From a virus, in IMG/VR virus record IMGVR_UViG_3300042888_001458, positions 1 through 29,917 of that record: a stretch of DNA of 29,917 nucleotides. One strand, 5' to 3'. Below the pieces are notes generated by a model, which saw only the letters and a list, made by a program, of their open reading frames with translations, had not been told where the DNA came from and did not search any database. Positions within the stretch are counted from its first letter, which is position 1. Each line of letters begins with the position of its first letter. The position numbers were made by a program, and so were the translations under genes. Positions 1,012 to 28,507 of the stretch are shown here, piece by piece.

Positions 1012-3249
1012 TTAAATTGAAACTATAGATGAAACATCATTTTCTTTTTTAATCATTAAAATGTTGTCAGCCCAATCTCTCACCAATTCTCTATGTGTTA
1101 TCAATAAGATACTATCAAAACTACTTTTAATTTTTTCAAAAAATGGTCTCATTAAAGATAAATTCTCATCAGCCACTTTACCCAATACCTCATCCAATAC
1201 TATGATATTTGGTTTAGGTAGTGTAGAAACTTTACCTAATACTAATCTAAGAGCTAAAGCCGCTAATGTTTTCTCAAACCCAGACCCAGACTTAACCAAT
1301 TTAGGTATAAAGTTTTTTATGATCAGGAATTCAACCTCATTCTTATCATTAACATTTAATTCCAATTCAAAATCACAAGCCCCATCTAACATTTGTTGAA
1401 TCTCTGAATTAATAATTGGTATTACAGATCTTAAAACTAACTTACCAATTCCATTTTTACCAATCATTTTACAATAGATGTCAAATATTTTTTCAACATC
1501 TAATTCTTTCCTAATGGTTTCTATTAATTTGGTTTTATCAATTGTTGACTCTTCTAATCTAATGATTTCATTATTATTTTTTTCAATTAGTTTCATAAAA
1601 TTATTCTTATCAATATCGACCATTCTAATCCTTGAATTAACTCCGGTTAACTGACTTTCTAATTTTTGATTGGAATCAATAAATTCAGTGTTTCTCTCAT
1701 ACTCCTTAAGTTGATTATTCTTCTCTTTAAGGGTTACTCTCATTCGTTCTAAATCAACTTCAATCTTATCTTTCATTAAAGATTTTCTATCAATAGAATC
1801 TGATTCGGATTTTTGAACATCATATCGACTAATCAATAGATCTAGTTCACCTAATTCAATTACTAACCCCTCATTAATTTTAGTTAATTCAATAGATTTA
1901 TTTTCACTATCACTAATTTCTTTACTATGGTCAACATCTTCTAATGATCTTTTACAAGTTGGACAAAATTCACCTTCTTTAAGAGCTTTAATGTGACTAC
2001 TTAATTTATTAATCTCACTAATATTACCCCTCCTAGAAAGTTCTACTTCATTCCTACTATCTTTAGTTTTTTTATGTCCATCTTCATCATATGTTGATTT
2101 ACCTAAAGTTTCTAATTCTTTAATAATAGTATCTAATTCCGCTTTTTTATTAACACCATTTTTAGTTAATAAACCAATATCAGTTTTTAATGTCTCAGGG
2201 TTTAATTTTAAAATCTCAGGATCTATTTGAACTTTTTTAGATAGTAACCCATCTCTCTCGTAGTTCAATTCTTCAATCGTTTTAATGGATTCTTCCAAAC
2301 TTTTATTAGTATCATAATTTGATACACCTAAGTTTTCAATCGTAAGACCATTGTTAATGATTTCATTCTTTAACGTTTCAATATTATAAATGTTAGACTT
2401 CATAGTTTTTTTAAACTCTGATGTCATTTTCTTGGCGATCTCTTCTTTATCATCTAACACTTCAAGTCCAATAAATTTGGTTAGTGTTTTACCCCTCTCT
2501 GTTGGTTTAGAATCAATTAAATCTGTAAGGTTATCACCGGTAGCTATAATCGTGGCCATAAAATCACTTTCACTACCTATGGCTTCAGCGATTTTTTTAG
2601 TGGTGTCTTGTGTTTGTTCACCTTTTAAATCTTCCTCTGTACCATCTGGTAATATTTTTTTATATTCAACAGATGATGATACACTCCACCCACCAGCTTT
2701 TTTGGGTTTTCTATTGATAACTCTTTCAATCATAAAATCATCACCATCAATCTCAATTAAACCTTTAACTCTAACAATATTACTTTCTCTAAAACTATTG
2801 AAAATATCTTCATTTTTTTCTGTCTTAGTAGTTTCACCAAAAAATAAAAATTTAAGGGCGTCAACTGAAAAAGTGGTATTATGGGAAACAATACCATTTG
2901 TATAGTATTGATGTACTTCCGCTACTTGTATGTCATATAAAGTATCTTTAAAATCCATTAATTTAATACTTTTAACTTTCTTAATACCATCAATCGTCTG
3001 TATTGGTGTATCAACTTCAATTTCTTTAAGGACAACAAATTCACCATCTTCTTTTTTCAATTTATGATAATCAGCCCCTTCCACGTATTTACCATCTTCT
3101 AATTCACATCGATAAACATCAGCATTTTCTTCCGTAATACCACACCATTCAATATCTTTGAATCCATAAGGTGTACTAACTTTAAAACTTAAATCACCAT
3201 ATTTTTTATAAATTTCATTTAATTCACCTATTGTTAAACTTTTCTCCAT
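1012..3249 (-). CDS. sbcC: SbcC/gp46-like ATPase, C-terminal part, preceded by split-intein C-fragment
   Basis: Second half of a fractured SMC-like recombination ATPase (SbcC/Rad50, T4 gp46 type). Residues 1-124 are an intein C-fragment: a Gly-rich strand FKVSTPYGF at 22-30, a likely block B His at 62 (GADYHKL), a block F segment (LYDIQVAEVHQYY), and a final block G, NGIVSHN. The mature part starts at Thr125 (TTFSVDALKFLFFGE, the rest of the P-loop and its helix). It has long coiled coils around a zinc hook C429-P-T-C432, the ABC signature SGSGFEKT at 654-661, Walker B with D686-E687 (IIVLDE) and a switch His719 (LITHRE). The partner of the SbcD-like nuclease is encoded upstream. The spliced protein would be 171+621=792 residues, longer than T4 gp46 (about 560). 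On its own this ORF lacks the Walker A lysine, so it should be inactive until trans-splicing. Start: ATG at 3249 after an A-rich leader. Confidence 0.93.
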   Translation of the reverse strand: MEKSLTIGELNEIYKKYGDLSFKVSTPYGFKDIEWCGITEENADVYRCELEDGKYVEGADYHKLKKEDGEFVVLKEIEVDTPIQTIDGIKKVKSIKLMDFKDTLYDIQVAEVHQYYTNGIVSHNTTFSVDALKFLFFGETTKTEKNEDIFNSFRESNIVRVKGLIEIDGDDFMIERVINRKPKKAGGWSVSSSVEYKKILPDGTEEDLKGEQTQDTTKKIAEAIGSESDFMATIIATGDNLTDLIDSKPTERGKTLTKFIGLEVLDDKEEIAKKMTSEFKKTMKSNIYNIETLKNEIINNGLTIENLGVSNYDTNKSLEESIKTIEELNYERDGLLSKKVQIDPEILKLNPETLKTDIGLLTKNGVNKKAELDTIIKELETLGKSTYDEDGHKKTKDSRNEVELSRRGNISEINKLSSHIKALKEGEFCPTCKRSLEDVDHSKEISDSENKSIELTKINEGLVIELGELDLLISRYDVQKSESDSIDRKSLMKDKIEVDLERMRVTLKEKNNQLKEYERNTEFIDSNQKLESQLTGVNSRIRMVDIDKNNFMKLIEKNNNEIIRLEESTIDKTKLIETIRKELDVEKIFDIYCKMIGKNGIGKLVLRSVIPIINSEIQQMLDGACDFELELNVNDKNEVEFLIIKNFIPKLVKSGSGFEKTLAALALRLVLGKVSTLPKPNIIVLDEVLGKVADENLSLMRPFFEKIKSSFDSILLITHRELVRDWADNILMIKKENDVSSIVSI
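2878..3249 (-). other. split intein, C-terminal fragment (124 aa)
   Basis: The first 124 codons of the downstream SbcC ORF match a Hint-fold intein without its first strands. Visible are STPYGF (the conserved strand and turn after the split), GADYHKL (block B-like, His62), LYDIQVAEVHQYYTNG (block F) and the terminal IVSHN (block G; penultimate His, terminal Asn cyclises). The next residue is Thr, a permitted +1 nucleophile. Codons for His (2881-2883) and Asn (2878-2880) were read directly. It contains no endonuclease domain, so it is a mini-intein. Confidence 0.9.
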
Positions 3250-3278
3250 TTTATTTTTTTTATTTTAAAAACTATTTT

Positions 3279-3286
3279 TATTTATA
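3279..3286 (-). promoter_or_regulatory. possible T4-late-like promoter element TATAAATA
   Basis: The minus strand reads TATAAATA about 30 bases upstream of the ATG of the intein-C/SbcC ORF, in the 63-base gap after the endonuclease gene. This octamer equals the T4 late promoter consensus. In DNA this AT-rich it can occur by chance, and I see no sigma factor gene in the window, so this is a weak candidate only. Confidence 0.2.
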
Positions 3287-3312
3287 CAAACTTTATTAAT
3301 ATCCATTAACTT

Positions 3313-4326
3313 TTAACCAGTTAAATTTAAAAAATTTTTACACTTATTAATAACACTTTCTTTATTTTTTTTATATTCAGAATCCCAAACGACTAATAAC
3401 TCAAACCCATGTTCATTAGCTATATTTTTTTTATTCCCATCTTTTTCCCAAATTTCTTGGGCTGACAAATACTTCCTAAATGGGTTTGGAGTATCAGTTT
3501 CATTATAAATCTCTGGGTTAGCATGATAGACATCACCATTATATTCAATAATTTTCTTATTTTTTAAATCGGTAAAGTCATACCTATAAAACCCATTAGA
3601 ATTATTTAACACAAACTCCCCACCCTTTTTTGCGAATAAAAAATAATTTAATTCATTAACCTCAATATTTTCAATTAATTTTAAAAATAATTCTTGACTT
3701 ACTTCTGAATAACCTGATTTTAATTTACCATTTTTATATAAACTTTTTTGCCAATTATTTTGTCTCTGCACAAATATTTTTCGTCCATTTTCTTCACCAT
3801 GTTTCTTTAAACATTTCTCTAAAGAAAATGTATTTTGTCTTTCTGACCTTAATTTCACCGCTTCCTCATTAGAATAACCTTTATTTAACCAATATTCTAA
3901 ATTAGCTGAACCTAATTTACCATTTTCACTCCTTTTTTCCATTCTACTATCCCATATTTGTTTACCCTCAATTTCACCAAATCTAGCGATACACCCTCTT
4001 AGAGAGACCAATTTCTGACCTTCTATTTGTAGAATAGCTTCGGACTCTGAGTACCCCTTTTTAATCCAATGTTCTTTATTTACCGGTCTTAATGTCTTAA
4101 TATGTTCTAATATTTTATCCTCTGGTAAGCCCCTATCTAACCAATACTTTTCACTATATGGTGAACTTTTCGGTATTTTAACATTATTCATTTTTAACCT
4201 ATTAATTATTACTTCTCGATCAACACCATATTTTAAACCAATATTTTTTGTTGATTCAAAATCTTCAGTATACATTTTAATCATATCTTTAATTTCTAAT
4301 TCCGTGAATTGTTTTTTATTACCCAT
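3313..4326 (-). CDS. free-standing homing endonuclease, Vsr-like EDxHD family
   Basis: Probable site-specific DNA endonuclease of 337 residues lying between the two halves of the fractured SbcC gene. Residues 7-50 resemble a helix-turn-helix (TKNIGLKYGVDREVIINRL). Residues 58-195 hold repeats typical of phage homing-enzyme DNA-binding arms: YWLDRGLPEDKI, HWIKKGYSESEA and YWLNKGYSNEEA, and two copies of a C..+.GE..G+.I...R unit (112-130, 172-190). The C-terminal domain (about 205-337) has the Vsr-like pattern: E208 in SEVSQELF, D250 in YRYDF, IIEYNGDVYHANP with D265 and H268, WEKD at 293-296 and VVWD at 312-315. I start at the ATG at 4326 (MGNKKQF); the upstream ATG at 4365 adds 13 residues unlike the family and is less likely. 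Gaps of 61 and 63 bases separate it from the intein halves. Confidence 0.85.
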   Translation of the reverse strand: MGNKKQFTELEIKDMIKMYTEDFESTKNIGLKYGVDREVIINRLKMNNVKIPKSSPYSEKYWLDRGLPEDKILEHIKTLRPVNKEHWIKKGYSESEAILQIEGQKLVSLRGCIARFGEIEGKQIWDSRMEKRSENGKLGSANLEYWLNKGYSNEEAVKLRSERQNTFSLEKCLKKHGEENGRKIFVQRQNNWQKSLYKNGKLKSGYSEVSQELFLKLIENIEVNELNYFLFAKKGGEFVLNNSNGFYRYDFTDLKNKKIIEYNGDVYHANPEIYNETDTPNPFRKYLSAQEIWEKDGNKKNIANEHGFELLVVWDSEYKKNKESVINKCKNFLNLTG

Positions 4327-4387
4327 TTTAGTTACATTTTTATATAAATATAACCGACTAACCAAAAAGGTAAATAAAGTAATATAT

Positions 4388-4477
4388 TTATTTTAACTCA
4401 TCTGGCAAAAAACCTAATTTTTTAATGATATATTCCTCATTATAATCTATAAGTACTTGAGTATCAGCCCTAACGCA
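4388..4477 (-). other. split intein, N-terminal fragment (29 aa)
   Basis: Twenty-nine codons plus stop. The fragment begins with Cys1 (TGC at 4475-4477) in CVRADTQVLID, an intein block A, and ends LGFLPDELK. Canonical split inteins have N-fragments of roughly 90-110 residues with block B. Here block B lies in the C-fragment, so the split site is unusually close to the N-terminus. A similar layout is known from the atypically split AceL-TerL intein, whose N-fragment is about 25 residues. The total intein is 153 residues. Confidence 0.88.
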
Positions 4478-4990
4478 TTTACCCCCCTGGTTTGGTGGGT
4501 CCGACACAACCACACTAACACCGTTAAGGTCAGAATAGTTAATTACATTATCATCACCAAAACTTAATAAGTTATCAATCTCAATAGTTTTAATAAACCA
4601 TTTACGATATCTATAATCAGTATCTTTAATTAGTTTATATTCCTCATTAACTTTATCATCCAACTTAACGATACGATCCCAATTAGTTTCAATTTTTTCT
4701 CTATCTAACCATTCTTTAAATAAGTTTTTTTGATATGTAGTATCCATAATATTATCAACCACACCATCAGACAATCTTATTAACTCTGGTTTATTACCTT
4801 CTTTAACCGCCCTAAAAATAACATTAATTGATGTGGGTGGTACACCATACTTTTTTGAGAAATAAGCTTTAATTCGTTGTTTACCTTCATTTGAATTATT
4901 TTCCGGTCTATCATCCCAATAAACTTTTACTTGTGCCTTTGATGGTAATGTACTAGTTACTCCGTCTTTTTTAATCATTTCTTTTTCCAT
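4388..4990 (-). CDS. sbcC: SbcC/gp46-like ATPase, N-terminal part, ending in split-intein N-fragment
   Basis: First half of the fractured recombination ATPase. Residues 1-130 are an extension not found in ordinary SbcC/gp46, charged and without a recognised domain. At about 131 the family N-terminus begins (WFIKTIEIDNLLSFGDDNVINY), leading to the P-loop VSDPPNQGGK with Lys171. Cys172 then starts an intein N-fragment that runs to the stop at residue 200. The first Gly of the classical GxxGxGK motif is Pro here (PPNQGGK), a departure worth noting. After splicing the loop reads PPNQGGKTT. The ORF starts one base after the stop of the 132-aa gene (TAATATG). An internal Met5 is an alternative start. 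Without the second half this product has no signature, Walker B or zinc hook, so it cannot act alone. Confidence 0.92.
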   Translation of the reverse strand: MEKEMIKKDGVTSTLPSKAQVKVYWDDRPENNSNEGKQRIKAYFSKKYGVPPTSINVIFRAVKEGNKPELIRLSDGVVDNIMDTTYQKNLFKEWLDREKIETNWDRIVKLDDKVNEEYKLIKDTDYRYRKWFIKTIEIDNLLSFGDDNVINYSDLNGVSVVVSDPPNQGGKCVRADTQVLIDYNEEYIIKKLGFLPDELK

Positions 4991-5390: not shown

Positions 5391-5571
5391 CAAATCTATC
5401 AAAATTTTGGTAAAATGGTAAATAGTAATCATTAAATAATCCCACTACACTACCATTAAATGATAATACACTCTCAATTGAATTGATTCTTGAGTATATT
5501 TTAAAATATGTATTAGGTTCAATATTATCTAATGTTCCAATACATTTTATACCTTGAATTAATTCTTTCAT
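5383..5571 (-). CDS. small unrecognised protein, 62 aa
   Basis: I do not recognise this protein. The start codon overlaps the stop of the SbcD-like gene as TAATG (5569-5573), indicating coupled translation with the nuclease. The product (MKELIQGIKCIGTLDNIEPNTYFKIYSRINS...) looks like a small beta-rich fold with an aromatic and acidic C-terminus (YYLPFYQNFDRFDD). No metal or membrane motif is seen. Its position between SbcD and SbcC genes suggests a small accessory subunit, but this is not supported by any motif. Confidence 0.6.
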   Translation of the reverse strand: MKELIQGIKCIGTLDNIEPNTYFKIYSRINSIESVLSFNGSVVGLFNDYYLPFYQNFDRFDD

Positions 5572-6383
5572 TATGAATTGACTAATATCTCTTTATCGGA
5601 TTCAATATCATCTAAAGAGTTTATTTTAAAAGTATAGAATCCATGATCAGTATCTATATCAACTTCTTCATATTCTTTTGACATTAAATCCCAAACTAAA
5701 TATCCGTGTCCGTGGCCAGCCGATTCAGCGAAATCCTGTTGAATGAATGATCCACTATAAATTATGGGAATACCTTTATAAGATAATTTTTGTCTCATAT
5801 GTATATCACCTAACATAACAATATCCAAATTTTCAAATTGTGTTAAATCCCCACCCTCAATATCAAAACCTAAATCAGTTCTTGATCCAGTTAACGGACC
5901 ATGGTATAAACCTATATAAGTTTTATCTTTACCATACTCTAATTTAACCTCATCAATATTAGGTCTTGAATTACCATCAATCATTGAGTATGGACACCAT
6001 ACAACATTATCGTCCACATCACAAACACTATGTTTATAATAAAAAATGTTTTTATTTCTCATCATCTCAACTATCGGTGTGATACTATCTAATCGATCAG
6101 TATTATGTTCTAATAAATCGTGATTACCAGGTATGATGATTGTCTTACATCTTACCGCACACTCATTTAGAAACCAACTTAATACCATACTAAGTTCATT
6201 TGATATAGTAATCTTTTGATGTACTAAATCACCAAGTATAGCTATCCTAACTTCATCAGGACTATATTTAGTGAGTATTAAATCAACTTCTTTAAAGAAC
6301 TTTTCAGCTTGTTCTCTATATTCTTCATGTCTTTTAAATGTTCTGAAATGTAAATCAGCTATGTGTATAATTTTTTTTATCAT
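5571..6383 (-). CDS. sbcD: SbcD/gp47-like recombination nuclease (Mre11 family)
   Basis: Nuclease subunit of the SbcCD/Rad50-Mre11 type complex (T4 gp46/gp47), which processes double-strand ends for recombination-dependent replication. All calcineurin-like phosphoesterase motifs are visible: D10-L-H12, GD52 in ILGDLVHQ, GNHD at 86-89, H161 in GLYHGPL, GDIH195 and GHGH at 223-226. The length of 270 residues is near the core domain and shorter than T4 gp47 (about 340), so the C-terminal capping or ATPase-binding part is reduced; it ends soon after FYTFKINSLDDI. It starts at the ATG at 6383 after an AT-rich leader and overlaps the next gene by TAATG. Its partner ATPase is the fractured SbcC gene downstream. 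The active-site residues are complete, so the nuclease should be functional. Confidence 0.93.
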   Translation of the reverse strand: MIKKIIHIADLHFRTFKRHEEYREQAEKFFKEVDLILTKYSPDEVRIAILGDLVHQKITISNELSMVLSWFLNECAVRCKTIIIPGNHDLLEHNTDRLDSITPIVEMMRNKNIFYYKHSVCDVDDNVVWCPYSMIDGNSRPNIDEVKLEYGKDKTYIGLYHGPLTGSRTDLGFDIEGGDLTQFENLDIVMLGDIHMRQKLSYKGIPIIYSGSFIQQDFAESAGHGHGYLVWDLMSKEYEEVDIDTDHGFYTFKINSLDDIESDKEILVNS

Positions 6384-22450: not shown

Positions 22451-24023
22451 CGTTATCGTTTATTGTAAATTGTTGTGTACTTGAACAAGTCGCACCATTA
22501 ATTGATGAAGTTCCATGATCATACGAAAGTGTAGGATCTTGACGCTTTAAACTTAAAAAATAATTCTCGTGGATATATGTAACCCCATTTAAAAATGGAT
22601 AATTAACACCTCTATTAGTTTCATCAAAGTATCCCTTTGTTAATATATCTCTCCATCTATATCTACCATTAGAAAATAAAGCGTAATCTGGTATATTAAT
22701 AGTTGGTATATTAGGATCACTATATTCCACTTGACTTGAATAATATTGTGTAACTATTTTATAATGTGGTTTATAATAATACCCCTCATAATATGAGTTA
22801 GTATTTCTATTATTAGAATTGAATCTATGTCTAGCCCCTTCTAATATTATCTCACTAATATTTTCATCGTTGTAATCAATAATATCACCGAAGAAAACAT
22901 TATTAGTCGAACTAATTATACCTAAATCAGGTAATGGGTAGGGTTGATCATTTATTTGTTTTATGTCATAATTAACTAAATCAACTTTTGTTTCTAATCC
23001 AACTTTTAAATTACCCCAATAATTTGAGGATGTTTTTGTTTTAACCATCGTTAAATATACTTCGGTAATAGGTCTATCTAAATAATCCCTATATAATGAT
23101 ATATCTATATTATTATTGGTATTGAAACCTATGACTTCATCACCAAAAATGGTTGTACTAAACGCTGTTGGATAAAAATCTATTTCATTAGTTTGTGTGA
23201 TCGCACTAAAGTATCTCGCATAATATTTTGATTCTACATTATTAACCACTCTTTTCATTGACGCGTTTGTAAATGTAATACCACTAGTTGAACCAGTAAT
23301 AAAAGTGTTAATTATAAACTCATTATTAACATTATCACCCAATAAAATCACTGTATGTATACCATCATATAAAGTTCCTCCGGTAATCTTAACCTCATCA
23401 CCCACATTTAAACCATGTGAAATTGGTATTTTAAACCCAGTCATATCAACATCACCAACTTTTGTTTGATAAACAGAACTAATCGCGATACCATCACTTA
23501 AATAAATTGGTCGTAATGGATCATTATTAGCGTTAAAATAAACTGTATTAGATAAACCGGTATAAGGGTAAGTTATCTTTAATGACCAGTTATCTTTTAC
23601 ACCATCTTTAACAATTAATAAATCTTTTTTTTTAGGGTATAAATCAACGAATTCACATAAATTATTACCATTTTGAACGAAATAACCAAACCAACCATTT
23701 TGTTCAATTAATAGTTGATTCACTTGTGAAAATTGTTCATCTGATAAAGATATAATACTATTAATAGTTTGTAATGAATCCGGACCTGTGATATCAAATA
23801 AAACATTTGATATTAATGGTCTAATTGAACCTAAAAATCTATATAAATTACTAACATTTCTTTCATCTTCAAAGACTTGGGATTGATCAACAACACTATC
23901 AATTTGATTGAGTGGTAATGGTTTATTAGTATTACTTAACCCAATGTTAATATTAAAATCTTTATTCACAGACTTTTTTGAAATCTGTGAATCTAATATT
24001 TTATATAATCTTTCAGTATTCAT
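22440..24023 (-). CDS. putative tail/baseplate protein, 527 aa
   Basis: Not recognised by name. The first 120 residues are mostly helical (MNTERLYKILDSQISKKSVN, then FEDERNVSNLYRFLGSIRPL). The middle has a tail-type beta domain, ISHGLNVGDEVKITGGTLYDG with VILLGDNVNNEFIINTF, a 'vGDxVxIxG...YdG' pattern common in phage tail proteins. The C-terminal third is Tyr/Asn-rich beta. It overlaps the end of the 1494-aa gene by TAATG. No enzymatic motif. Confidence 0.74.
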   Translation of the reverse strand: MNTERLYKILDSQISKKSVNKDFNINIGLSNTNKPLPLNQIDSVVDQSQVFEDERNVSNLYRFLGSIRPLISNVLFDITGPDSLQTINSIISLSDEQFSQVNQLLIEQNGWFGYFVQNGNNLCEFVDLYPKKKDLLIVKDGVKDNWSLKITYPYTGLSNTVYFNANNDPLRPIYLSDGIAISSVYQTKVGDVDMTGFKIPISHGLNVGDEVKITGGTLYDGIHTVILLGDNVNNEFIINTFITGSTSGITFTNASMKRVVNNVESKYYARYFSAITQTNEIDFYPTAFSTTIFGDEVIGFNTNNNIDISLYRDYLDRPITEVYLTMVKTKTSSNYWGNLKVGLETKVDLVNYDIKQINDQPYPLPDLGIISSTNNVFFGDIIDYNDENISEIILEGARHRFNSNNRNTNSYYEGYYYKPHYKIVTQYYSSQVEYSDPNIPTINIPDYALFSNGRYRWRDILTKGYFDETNRGVNYPFLNGVTYIHENYFLSLKRQDPTLSYDHGTSSINGATCSSTQQFTINDNDVC

Positions 24024-27000
24024 TATGAGGGTAAAGTGAACGTTGAACTACACCATAGACAATTATTATCATCTTTTATTTGTATTATATATTCACCACT
24101 ACCTAAATTTATGTAATCTTTAGTTGTTGGTGTAAAACTATTAGGTGTTATTGGAGTTGTACTAAGATTACAATTAGTATTACCTAAAACACTATTATAT
24201 AAATTAATAGTATACGATGTAGTTAAAGTCCCACCTATACCAGTAATATTTAATGAATATTGTTTAAACGGTATACTATTAGTTAAATTATATGTAAATA
24301 AACCAGATAATTGTGGTGGTGATGTTACAATAAATGTTGTACAAGTTTTACAACCATTAGTATCAGTTACCACCATATAATATTGTTTACTAATCATAAT
24401 ATGCGGTATATTAAATGTATAAGTCCCAGGTGTTACATTACTAGTTATTGGTTGCGCTAATGTACCAGGTGATGATACACAAGATGAAGTACATGGTGTA
24501 CTTGTTGGTGTATTACAATTATTACAAGTCGGTGTTAAAGTTGTATTTAATGCGGCATTGTATATAGCATAACTTAAATTACCAGTACCGCCAGCAAGAT
24601 TAAAACTAACTTGAGCTGTGCCATTAAAGCAAACCGCATTAGTTACAAATACATTATTTATATCTAATTTTGGTGGTGCTGTGATTGTAGTTGTAACTTT
24701 ATATTCACAATCTTTAGCGTCTTTTATCATACACACATAAGTACCTTCAGATAAATTAAGGGCTGTTTGTGTAGTTTGATTATTTGAATCATTCCATTTG
24801 TAAGTATATGGTGATGTTCCACCATTAGGGTTAACAGTAATATTAGTGGTACAACCATTACATAAAATAGTACCAGGTACTGCTGTTGCTGTTAATAAAG
24901 GTGGTGATGTTAAAGTAACAATTTGTGTCACAGTTTGTGCTGATGTTGAGTCATAAACTGTTATTGTATATGGTATACCACTAGTATTACCAGTTAAATT
25001 ACCAATACTACTTGTAGTTAATGTTCCATTAATAAATATTGTATATGGAGAAGTTCCACCGGTAATATTTGATAACACTATTTGTGCATCACCTTGATTA
25101 TAACAACTAGATGGTACTGTTGTATAATTAAAATTCAACGCAGAAGGTGATGCTATAGTTAACCCAGTTAATGTTATAGTCTGTTGACTACAAGTAGGTG
25201 TCGCAGTATCTTTAATGGTTACATTGTAAACACCAACACCAATTCCAGACAAATCTTGTGTTGTTTGTCCACCTGGCGACCAAAGATATGTGTAAGGTGG
25301 ATTACCACCAAATACATTAATATCTATACTACCATTACTTAAAATAGGTGATGTTGTATTTTGTACACTTGTTGGTACAGCAATTAAACTTAATGGTTCA
25401 TTGATATTGATATTGTATAATGAATTATCACCATATTTATCGGTCACACTTAATTGATATGAACCAGCAAATAGATTAGTGAATGATATAAAATTAGATG
25501 TTGTTGGTGATGAAGGACTTCCTAATATTGAATTAGAATTAGTATCAGCAAATGTGTACGTAAATGGTTCTTTACCACCTAATAGATTAACGGTAACAGA
25601 ACCAGCGTTTTGATTATTACAAGTATTATCTATAGTTGTAATTTGAGCTGGGATTTGATTTTGTTTATCTCGCTTACAAGGGACAAAATATGAGGCCATA
25701 GCACAATCCAACGCACTCTTACCAGGATTAATCCCAAAATAATAAAAATATGAATTTTCTGTTGGTAGCCCCAATGGGTTTGGATTATTATACCCTCTAA
25801 ATATATTGTAATCTGTTTGTTCTTGTGTACAATCAAACTGATAAATTCCAGTAGCACAAGAACCTAATTCATTTCTTAAAAATTCACCTTCTAATTCTTC
25901 CGTTGTGGCGATAGTAATTGGACTATCAAATATTTCAATATTACAATTAGCGGCTACCCCCGGTGGTGTATCATCAACTCTATTTTCATCCAAACCAATA
26001 CCAATTTCACAAATTCTTTTAATATTTTTACAATTATAATCTTCAACTTTAACCCTAAAACAATTTAAAGATAATAATAATGGGTCTATCGCGGTAGTTT
26101 CCAAAACATTATTACTATCTAATTCAGCTGTATCTGGTGGCATTTTATATGAAGTGTTAACTAAATAAGTAACTATTTTTTGTCTACCATCAATATCACA
26201 ATTAACCGCACTACCAAGACAAGTTATATCTGTAGCGTATAATAAGTTGGCGGTATCATGTGTCATCGCAGCATAATATAATTCATCTTTATGTTCTTTT
26301 ATAATACCTTCATCTATACCAACCTTATTAAAACTAATAGGGTTATTATCGTTAGCAACACAAGTATCAACTAAGAATAAATTATCTCTACACTTATTAT
26401 ACTTATGTTCCGGTGAATCTGTATCACTTTCATACGTGTCGTGACAATCATATTCACAAAACTTTTCTACAGTTCTTTTTTTACTCTTTTTTCTTCTAAC
26501 TTTATATTTGAATAAAAAAGCGTAAAGACTACCATTAATCCAATCATTATAAAAATCAAATTTAAAAACATTTAGAGCTCTCGCTAATTGTATTTCAATA
26601 CAATCCATAGCGCCAGCGAATGGAATAAAACCACTTCCCGCGGGACCACAACACCCATGAGCATCACTCGCGTTATATGATCCACAATCAATTTGATTAG
26701 TAACACCATCGCCAGGATAGTTTTCTGGTGGTTGACCACTATTAGCCGTACACCATCCAAGTTTATCTACATCTGATGGTATACTACAACCACTTGGTAA
26801 AGAACATGATGATGGTTTATAACACCCTGGTGCGAATGATTTTTCATCACACTTAATAGAAATACATGACATATAATTCATTATACTTCCACAAGTACAA
26901 CAACCAGTACCAATACAAAAATTACAAACATTAAAACTTAATGGTCCGTTACCAGGGATAAGACCATTAATGGCACTAACAATAGAGTCAATAAATTGAC

Positions 27001-28507
27001 CTAATCCGTAGATAATATTACAAATAAAACAAAGTATAGCATTTAAAGCACCTATAACAATGTTAAGTAATCTAATTAAACTTACATTAATTAATTCTAT
27101 TAATGTCATTAATATAGTTACGATTAAACATATAATACTATATAACGGATTTAAATCAGTATCAATTCTATTGTATGGGAATGGTGTATGATCACCACAA
27201 TCATCAACATCCTTTATACCAATAAAAGATCTTTTAGTTCCACAAACTTTTGTCTCACAATATTTTTGATACCGAGCAATAAATTGTCTAACAGTATACA
27301 CTTTTTTCCACCTTAAATCAGCGAATTCAGTATCTGGTGTTGAATCATCAAAATTATAATCAAGACCTCTATTCGGTATTAAAAATTTAGCTCTAGAACG
27401 TATTCTACCAGTATCACCAGTTTCATTCATAGCAACTCTAAATCTAACTTTAGCGTTACTTGGTACACCCTTTTCCGGATCTTCTGATGGTACTAAATTA
27501 CCAAACTCATCAGTAACTAACTTATCTAAGTTCATTGGTATTTGATAACACCAAACACCATTTTCATTAATTAAATTATCACCATCCACCGAAAACTTTT
27601 CTATAAGTCCTTCCGGTGTTTTTCTAATCATTTCAATAGTCCCTTCACCGGTAACAGTTTCACAAAGATTTCCTAATTTTCTTCTAGGTCTACATCTTTT
27701 ATTAACACTATTTTTTTCATTATCACCAAAAATATTCCCAATAAAAATCGCTGTGGGTATTATATCATAATTTAAATCAAAATCTACTCTTGTAATACCA
27801 ACTTCACATTCTTCTAAATCACCCCAAAATGGAATTACACTCGCACTAGTATTTCTACTTTTTATTTGACTTAATACATCTAAATTTTGTCCTGTTTTAA
27901 ATTGACTATTACTCGCAAATAAATTTTTACTAAAACCTTGACCAATTAATTCATAAGGTTTTTGACTAATAAATCCTATATCACTTAAATCAACATCAAT
28001 ATGAATTGTATGTTCTCCAACTGGAGCACCGAATATCATATAATCACCCGCACTATTAGTAGTAGTAGTAAACTTATAATATTTTTCAAATACTTCCAAA
28101 GTTGTACCACAATCTAAAACTTGTCGTTTATCTGGGAAAGTACCTACCGCAACGTGACATTCATCATCTGGTCTTGGTTCATTACTTAATAAATTATATC
28201 TAATCCCCTTATAATCTTTAGTGTAAATAGTTTCAAATGGATATAACCCATTAATCTCTGGTCTTGATTTATCTTCTTCCGCTAATGGGATGAAAATAGA
28301 AATTTTAGCGTTTGGAATACCAAATCCGTTATTAACTACAACTCTACCAACTACAACACCATAATCCGAACAATACTTAGTGTACGCTTCAGTTTGGGTT
28401 ATTTTTAAACTTAAAATCTCTAAAAAATCAAAATCTTGATCAATTTTTACTTTTAAGTGTTTATCATTCCCTAGAGGTGTTGTATTTATCCTAATGGATT
28501 TAGACAT
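24023..28507 (-). CDS. giant tail protein with SprB repeats, hydrophobic segment and Cys cluster, 1494 aa
   Basis: Likely tail or receptor-binding protein. Residues 49-175 match a carboxypeptidase-regulatory-like beta-sandwich (GVVVGRVVVNNGFGIPNAKISIF; later TNSAGDYMIFGAPVGEHTI). A long hydrophobic stretch at about 454-514 (ICLIVTILMTLIELINVSLI) could span or insert into a membrane two or more times. Immediately after come 11 cysteines at about 522-590 (CNFCIGTGCCTCGS). Residues 955-1494 carry six SprB-type repeats with (G)GT/GK-x-P-(F/Y)-T-Y and GxYxxxIxD hallmarks. SprB repeats are known from Bacteroidetes adhesins, including the Flavobacterium gliding adhesin. It starts at 28507 and ends in a TAATG overlap. 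Not an enzyme by any motif I can see. Confidence 0.82.
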   Translation of the reverse strand: MSKSIRINTTPLGNDKHLKVKIDQDFDFLEILSLKITQTEAYTKYCSDYGVVVGRVVVNNGFGIPNAKISIFIPLAEEDKSRPEINGLYPFETIYTKDYKGIRYNLLSNEPRPDDECHVAVGTFPDKRQVLDCGTTLEVFEKYYKFTTTTNSAGDYMIFGAPVGEHTIHIDVDLSDIGFISQKPYELIGQGFSKNLFASNSQFKTGQNLDVLSQIKSRNTSASVIPFWGDLEECEVGITRVDFDLNYDIIPTAIFIGNIFGDNEKNSVNKRCRPRRKLGNLCETVTGEGTIEMIRKTPEGLIEKFSVDGDNLINENGVWCYQIPMNLDKLVTDEFGNLVPSEDPEKGVPSNAKVRFRVAMNETGDTGRIRSRAKFLIPNRGLDYNFDDSTPDTEFADLRWKKVYTVRQFIARYQKYCETKVCGTKRSFIGIKDVDDCGDHTPFPYNRIDTDLNPLYSIICLIVTILMTLIELINVSLIRLLNIVIGALNAILCFICNIIYGLGQFIDSIVSAINGLIPGNGPLSFNVCNFCIGTGCCTCGSIMNYMSCISIKCDEKSFAPGCYKPSSCSLPSGCSIPSDVDKLGWCTANSGQPPENYPGDGVTNQIDCGSYNASDAHGCCGPAGSGFIPFAGAMDCIEIQLARALNVFKFDFYNDWINGSLYAFLFKYKVRRKKSKKRTVEKFCEYDCHDTYESDTDSPEHKYNKCRDNLFLVDTCVANDNNPISFNKVGIDEGIIKEHKDELYYAAMTHDTANLLYATDITCLGSAVNCDIDGRQKIVTYLVNTSYKMPPDTAELDSNNVLETTAIDPLLLSLNCFRVKVEDYNCKNIKRICEIGIGLDENRVDDTPPGVAANCNIEIFDSPITIATTEELEGEFLRNELGSCATGIYQFDCTQEQTDYNIFRGYNNPNPLGLPTENSYFYYFGINPGKSALDCAMASYFVPCKRDKQNQIPAQITTIDNTCNNQNAGSVTVNLLGGKEPFTYTFADTNSNSILGSPSSPTTSNFISFTNLFAGSYQLSVTDKYGDNSLYNININEPLSLIAVPTSVQNTTSPILSNGSIDINVFGGNPPYTYLWSPGGQTTQDLSGIGVGVYNVTIKDTATPTCSQQTITLTGLTIASPSALNFNYTTVPSSCYNQGDAQIVLSNITGGTSPYTIFINGTLTTSSIGNLTGNTSGIPYTITVYDSTSAQTVTQIVTLTSPPLLTATAVPGTILCNGCTTNITVNPNGGTSPYTYKWNDSNNQTTQTALNLSEGTYVCMIKDAKDCEYKVTTTITAPPKLDINNVFVTNAVCFNGTAQVSFNLAGGTGNLSYAIYNAALNTTLTPTCNNCNTPTSTPCTSSCVSSPGTLAQPITSNVTPGTYTFNIPHIMISKQYYMVVTDTNGCKTCTTFIVTSPPQLSGLFTYNLTNSIPFKQYSLNITGIGGTLTTSYTINLYNSVLGNTNCNLSTTPITPNSFTPTTKDYINLGSGEYIIQIKDDNNCLWCSSTFTLPS
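24026..25640 (-). repeat. six SprB-type repeats (C-terminal part of the 1494-aa protein)
   Basis: Diverged units of about 75-100 residues repeat the pattern x-V/I-x-GG-x-x-P-Y-T-Y-x-(W/F) ... L-x-x-G-x-Y-x-(V/I)-x-(V/I)-x-D-x-x-x-C. Clear copies include GGKEPFTYTF with FAGSYQLSVTDKYG, GGNPPYTYLWSPGG with GVGVYNVTIKDTAT, GGTSPYTIFI, and GGTSPYTYKWNDSN with LSEGTYVCMIKDAKDC. The last two are more diverged (GGTGNLSYAIYN with YYMVVTDTNGC; LGSGEYIIQIKDDNNC). Confidence 0.82.

Follow-up and report, generated by a model that had tools for sequence, protein, structure and literature searches.

Fractured genes that combine split inteins with EDxHD endonucleases were reportedly described by Dassa et al. 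in 2009, as host genes broken in two, with the split intein on the inner ends of the halves and a free endonuclease gene between them. The window studied here (the whole IMG/VR virus record IMGVR_UViG_3300042888_001458, a metagenomic virus contig of 29,917 bases, AT-rich at 28.8% G+C) presents this known arrangement in a phage homologue of sbcC (gene 46), and differs from the 2009 examples in its SbcC/Rad50 host and in its atypical split, with a short N-terminal intein fragment (IntN). No paper naming both SbcC and a split intein was found in the literature searched, in which coverage of subscription papers was partial; such a host appears to be unreported there. The reading proposed, to which a probability of about 0.93 is given, is that of a mobile cassette that fractures the gene, whose split intein is removed by protein trans-splicing to give a 792-residue SbcC, and which spreads through homing of its endonuclease to empty sites.

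Atypically split inteins are defined by a short IntN paired with a long C-terminal fragment (IntC) (PMC12707363), the natural AceL-TerL and GOS-TerL and the engineered Cat-TerL being examples (PMC11766414). The window intein shares this geometry with the TerL inteins and has its nearest solved structure in VidaL, but it differs from all four in its SbcC host, its +1 Thr, its endonuclease and its natural empty and contiguous counterparts. Its position between the Lys and Thr of the P-loop is a classic one for inteins (PMC5050341), and is also that of the mycobacteriophage TerL1-a, which is inserted between the invariant Walker A Lys and Thr but is contiguous and has TerL as host. The endonuclease would share its nuclease fold (residues 205-337) with I-Bth0305I and Vsr, whereas it adds an N-terminal helix-turn-helix (HTH) and a helical middle part, does not lie in a group I intron, and gave no match when its profile was compared by sequence with the PDB. 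The locus adds a DNA-repair ATPase to the hosts of natural, atypically split inteins, a class useful for protein labelling. Its features are the following:

4478 to 4990, minus strand: N-extein, SbcC/Rad50-like residues 1-171, ending in PPNQGGK (P-loop up to the Lys), aligned with intein-free relatives.
4391 to 4477, minus strand: IntN of 29 residues, CVRADTQVLIDYNEEYIIKKLGFLPDELK, followed by its own stop codon (4390-4388); Cys1 at 4477-4475.
4327 to 4387, minus strand: leader from the IntN stop to the endonuclease ATG, with conserved TACCTTTYTGRTTA (4359-4372) and GGTTATATTTATA (4343-4355).
3313 to 4326, minus strand: putative homing endonuclease gene, 337 residues, with an N-terminal HTH and a Vsr/EDxHD-fold nuclease domain at about 205-337 (predicted fold).
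3250 to 3312, minus strand: A-rich spacer ahead of the IntC start codon, the C-half starting independently.
2878 to 3249, minus strand: IntC of 124 residues (MEKSLTIGEL...NGIVSHN), with block-B His62, Asp106, penultimate His123 and Asn124 (conservation in 22 aligned sequences).
1012 to 2877, minus strand: C-extein, SbcC/Rad50 residues 172-792, with T+1, CxxC zinc hook, signature and Walker B.
5571 to 6383, minus strand: SbcD/gp47-like metallophosphoesterase, the expected partner of spliced SbcC (PF00149, E 4e-9; phrog_100, E 7e-18).

Three minus-strand open reading frames (ORFs) follow one another: 4990-4388 (SbcC N-half plus IntN), 4326-3313 (endonuclease; 337 residues from the ATG at 4326, or 350 from a TTG at 4365) and 3249-1012 (IntC plus SbcC C-half). 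At the left junction the Lys codon AAA (4480-4478) is followed by the Cys1 codon TGC (4477-4475), and at the right one the final intein Asn codon AAT (2880-2878) precedes the T+1 codon ACC (2877-2875). Excision of the 1600 bp from 2878 to 4477 joins AAA to ACC in an open frame of 792 codons; since this length is not divisible by three and puts the halves into different frames, sbcC cannot be read as a single ORF. The first-pass annotation had described a left ORF ending in PPNQGGK and a Cys-starting IntN, a right ORF whose IntC ends in NGIVSHN before Thr, and an exact rejoining of the P-loop codons, all of which holds to the base. Its identification of the host as SbcC/gp46, of the insert as a split intein with an endonuclease gene between its halves, and of the whole as a fractured gene is borne out by the matches and relatives presented below. 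The point it missed is the atypical nature of the split, the 29-residue IntN and 124-residue IntC being encoded in separate ORFs and frames.

Residues 80-789 of the rejoined extein match phrog_77 (SbcC-like subunit; E 2e-45), and the extein also matches Rad50 ATPases in the PDB (E 6e-8). A CPTC hook, an SGSGFEKT signature and an IIVLDEV Walker B can be read in it, and the SbcD-like gene lies close upstream on the same strand, so that, judged by sequence, the P-loop, zinc hook, signature, Walker B and neighbour proper to SbcC/Rad50/gp46 are all present.

Related loci were gathered from IMG/VR by searching with the extein, IntC and endonuclease sequences, and each locus was then classified. At least 90 distinct loci were found at the GGK|T site: at least 68 empty, 16 split with endonuclease (window included), four split without an intact endonuclease and two contiguous; the empty count is a lower bound (the best 80 loci of one search) and the proportions are not to be read as frequencies. 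Besides the window, 21 distinct loci carry this intein at this codon junction, and each contiguous intein occurs in two assemblies. The alignment with intein-free homologues that the first-pass annotation had proposed yields at least 68 distinct extein sequences running uninterrupted through GGK|T/S. That annotation would have taken such continuity as refutation, which is the wrong way round, as an insertion predicts just such empty sites and is supported by them. In two sister pairs of empty and occupied loci (L014/L070 and L011/L105), the DNA on either side is 84-88% identical as far as the junction itself. With two host halves that join without loss or gain, unoccupied sites in related loci and a free-standing endonuclease gene in the middle, the locus is a fractured gene. 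A frameshifted or chimeric contig, or a dying gene, could resemble a split gene, and the metagenomic origin and base composition of the window might invite that explanation. It is nevertheless very unlikely, to the point of being negligible, because the architecture recurs in 19 further distinct split loci, drawn from many metagenomes, with separate start codons and a near-identical IntN end ([LI]GF[LI]P[DE]ELK-stop in nearly all; variants ELKK in L139, PDEFL in L143 and LPNELK in L023), and dN/dS (the ratio of nonsynonymous to synonymous divergence) gives no signature of decay.

As to the intein itself, the search against intein models, also proposed earlier, matched the IntC half to Pfam Intein_splicing (E 3e-4, a score under the curated cut-off of the model), and VidaL is the first PDB match of the rejoined intein (phmmer, E 4e-7). 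These matches, the phrog_77 match of the extein and the 21 loci sharing the junction argue that the intein is no chance resemblance. The predicted structure of the contiguous intein of relative L007 (predicted local distance difference test score, pLDDT, 96) has the Hint fold of inteins; its top PDB matches are inteins, the closest being VidaL 6vgv (E 3e-10, template modelling scores 0.82/0.85, about 26% identity over the model). Residues G29, T39, H62, D106, Y116, N118, S122, H123 and N124 of IntC are invariant in 22 aligned sequences, and the window intein has C1, H62, D106, H123, N124 and T+1. With the sequence patterns used, no copy of the intein was found in bacterial or archaeal genome contigs.

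The two halves might alternatively work unspliced as two subunits carrying inert intein remnants, as is reported for a phage ribonucleotide reductase that a homing endonuclease has divided and that functions as a pair of peptides (Friedrich 2007, cited in PMC10448857). This is improbable, given that the splicing residues are retained in 22 of 22 aligned sequences and that IntN and IntC are under strong purifying selection. Moreover, the break parts the P-loop Lys from its Thr and would burden the ATP site with 29 and 124 residues of foreign origin, and in the two relatives with contiguous inteins the P-loop would be blocked unless these splice.

In the proposed trans-splicing mechanism, the cassette (IntN tail, EDxHD-type homing endonuclease gene and IntC head) sits between the P-loop Lys and Thr codons and two precursors would be made, one in which SbcC 1-171 ends in IntN and one in which IntC leads into SbcC 172-792. 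IntN, the short fragment, would dock into the long IntC, completing the Hint fold, and Cys1, the block-B His, the penultimate His with Asn124, and Thr+1 would then carry out protein trans-splicing, yielding the 792-residue SbcC with an intact GGKT P-loop. During co-infection with an empty-site phage, the uninterrupted P-loop DNA of that phage would be cleaved by the endonuclease, and repair of the break would insert a copy of the cassette. We infer trans-splicing, endonuclease cleavage and loss of the ATPase without splicing; full dependence of ATPase activity on trans-splicing is likewise a reasonable expectation.

The endonuclease model (pLDDT 84) comprises an HTH-like N-terminus, with structural matches at Z of about 5 only, a helical middle part and a C-terminal nuclease domain. 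Residues ~205-337 match Vsr 1cw0 (VIA Z 10.4), and the same domain aligns with the EDxHD enzyme I-Bth0305I 3r3p (VIA-align Z 9.9, 95 residues, root-mean-square deviation 3.0), which gives the C-terminus a predicted nuclease fold of the Vsr type, shared with I-Bth0305I. In annotated phages, several proteins related to the endonuclease in sequence carry the label Vsr. An active intein could also accompany an endonuclease that is degenerate or has another target than the SbcC site; four split relatives lack an intact endonuclease, and cleavage of the target is a prediction. This is unlikely: all 16 endonucleases at the SbcC site sit between intein halves, almost all relatives found in other genes have an IntC close by, and endonuclease dN/dS is 0.10-0.24.

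The intein and extein trees conflict, showing horizontal movement of the cassette. The window intein is 60-81% identical to those of relatives whose exteins are 36-44% identical (81% against 40-41% for L007 and L014), and across 231 pairs inteins have a median identity of 70%, exteins one of 43%. The pair L009/L015 is reversed (exteins 93%, inteins 77%), which implies separate acquisition or replacement of their inteins. Between L014 and L018, synonymous divergence amounts to 0.21 in IntN and 0.35 in the endonuclease, compared with 1.4-2.2 in the exteins. In the pairs tested, dN/dS of 0.05-0.24 for IntN, IntC and endonuclease indicates purifying selection on every part of the cassette, strong for IntN and IntC.

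Several points weigh against the reading as a mobile, trans-spliced cassette. The case is built on sequences and predicted structures, and the window itself is a virus contig of metagenomic origin. Block B reads GADxH and not the usual TxxH. Foldseek alone gave no E-value below 0.05 for the endonuclease model, and D250, E261 and H268 are candidates for residues of the EDxHD active site through their invariance in 20 aligned sequences. Lower intein divergence could in part reflect slower evolution, but the L009/L015 and L014/L018 comparisons argue against this as a complete account.

Loss of the endonuclease can be followed at the same junction. Pieces of it are recognisable between the halves in L068 (local score 118, shuffled maximum 38), the first part of its leader is kept as a scar in L015 (42 versus 29), and 27 and 46 nt separate the halves in L013 and L020. 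The contiguous joints read ..GFLPDEL-NEEITIGEL.. in L007 and ..GVLPDE-ITIGEL.. in L009. In the outgroup-rooted tree, built from a short alignment with many weak inner branches and long-branch outgroups, both contiguous inteins fall among split forms, which suggests re-fusion. A contiguous ancestor of the split forms was set aside on modest evidence, a tree forcing all split forms into one clade being disfavoured (approximately unbiased test, p 0.02; the group was picked after the first tree was seen). There is moderate confidence that splitting is ancestral in this intein family and that two lineages re-fused after losing the endonuclease. We lean, with some reserve, towards one codon junction preserving a full homing cycle with reversal: an empty site, a split intein with its endonuclease, a split intein whose endonuclease is decaying or gone, and a contiguous mini-intein whose joint takes two slightly different forms. 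If true, a split intein could heal to a contiguous form after losing its endonuclease. As related phages hold all four states of this P-loop site, the origin and reversibility of splitting become testable on natural alleles.

Members of the same endonuclease family lie close to IntC pieces in genes for TerL, ClpB and DnaB-like helicases, as well as in a distant SbcC-like gene, and the N-halves of these other host genes, where found, end at the P-loop GK. In L043 (483-7429), ClpB is fractured twice, once in each P-loop (GEPGVGK|C and GSTGVGK|C), into three protein pieces with two split inteins and a separate endonuclease gene between the halves of each. In L028 (4633-8436), a second, distant SbcC/Rad50-like gene is broken at GAGK|SS; its IntC is 36% identical, and fragments of an endonuclease are present as well.

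The leader motif, roughly TACCTTTYTGRTTA and then GGTTATATTTATA, is conserved 5' of the endonuclease start codon in most of the SbcC loci that have an endonuclease. An autoregulatory role as a mimic of the P-loop target was rejected, scores being no higher than those of shuffles in all loci but L015, itself without endonuclease. A phage-wide promoter is unsupported, the motif having a single copy in the window. Elsewhere on the minus strand, a 1494-residue ORF (24023-28507) with SprB repeats (PF13573, E 2e-18) hints at a Bacteroidota host.
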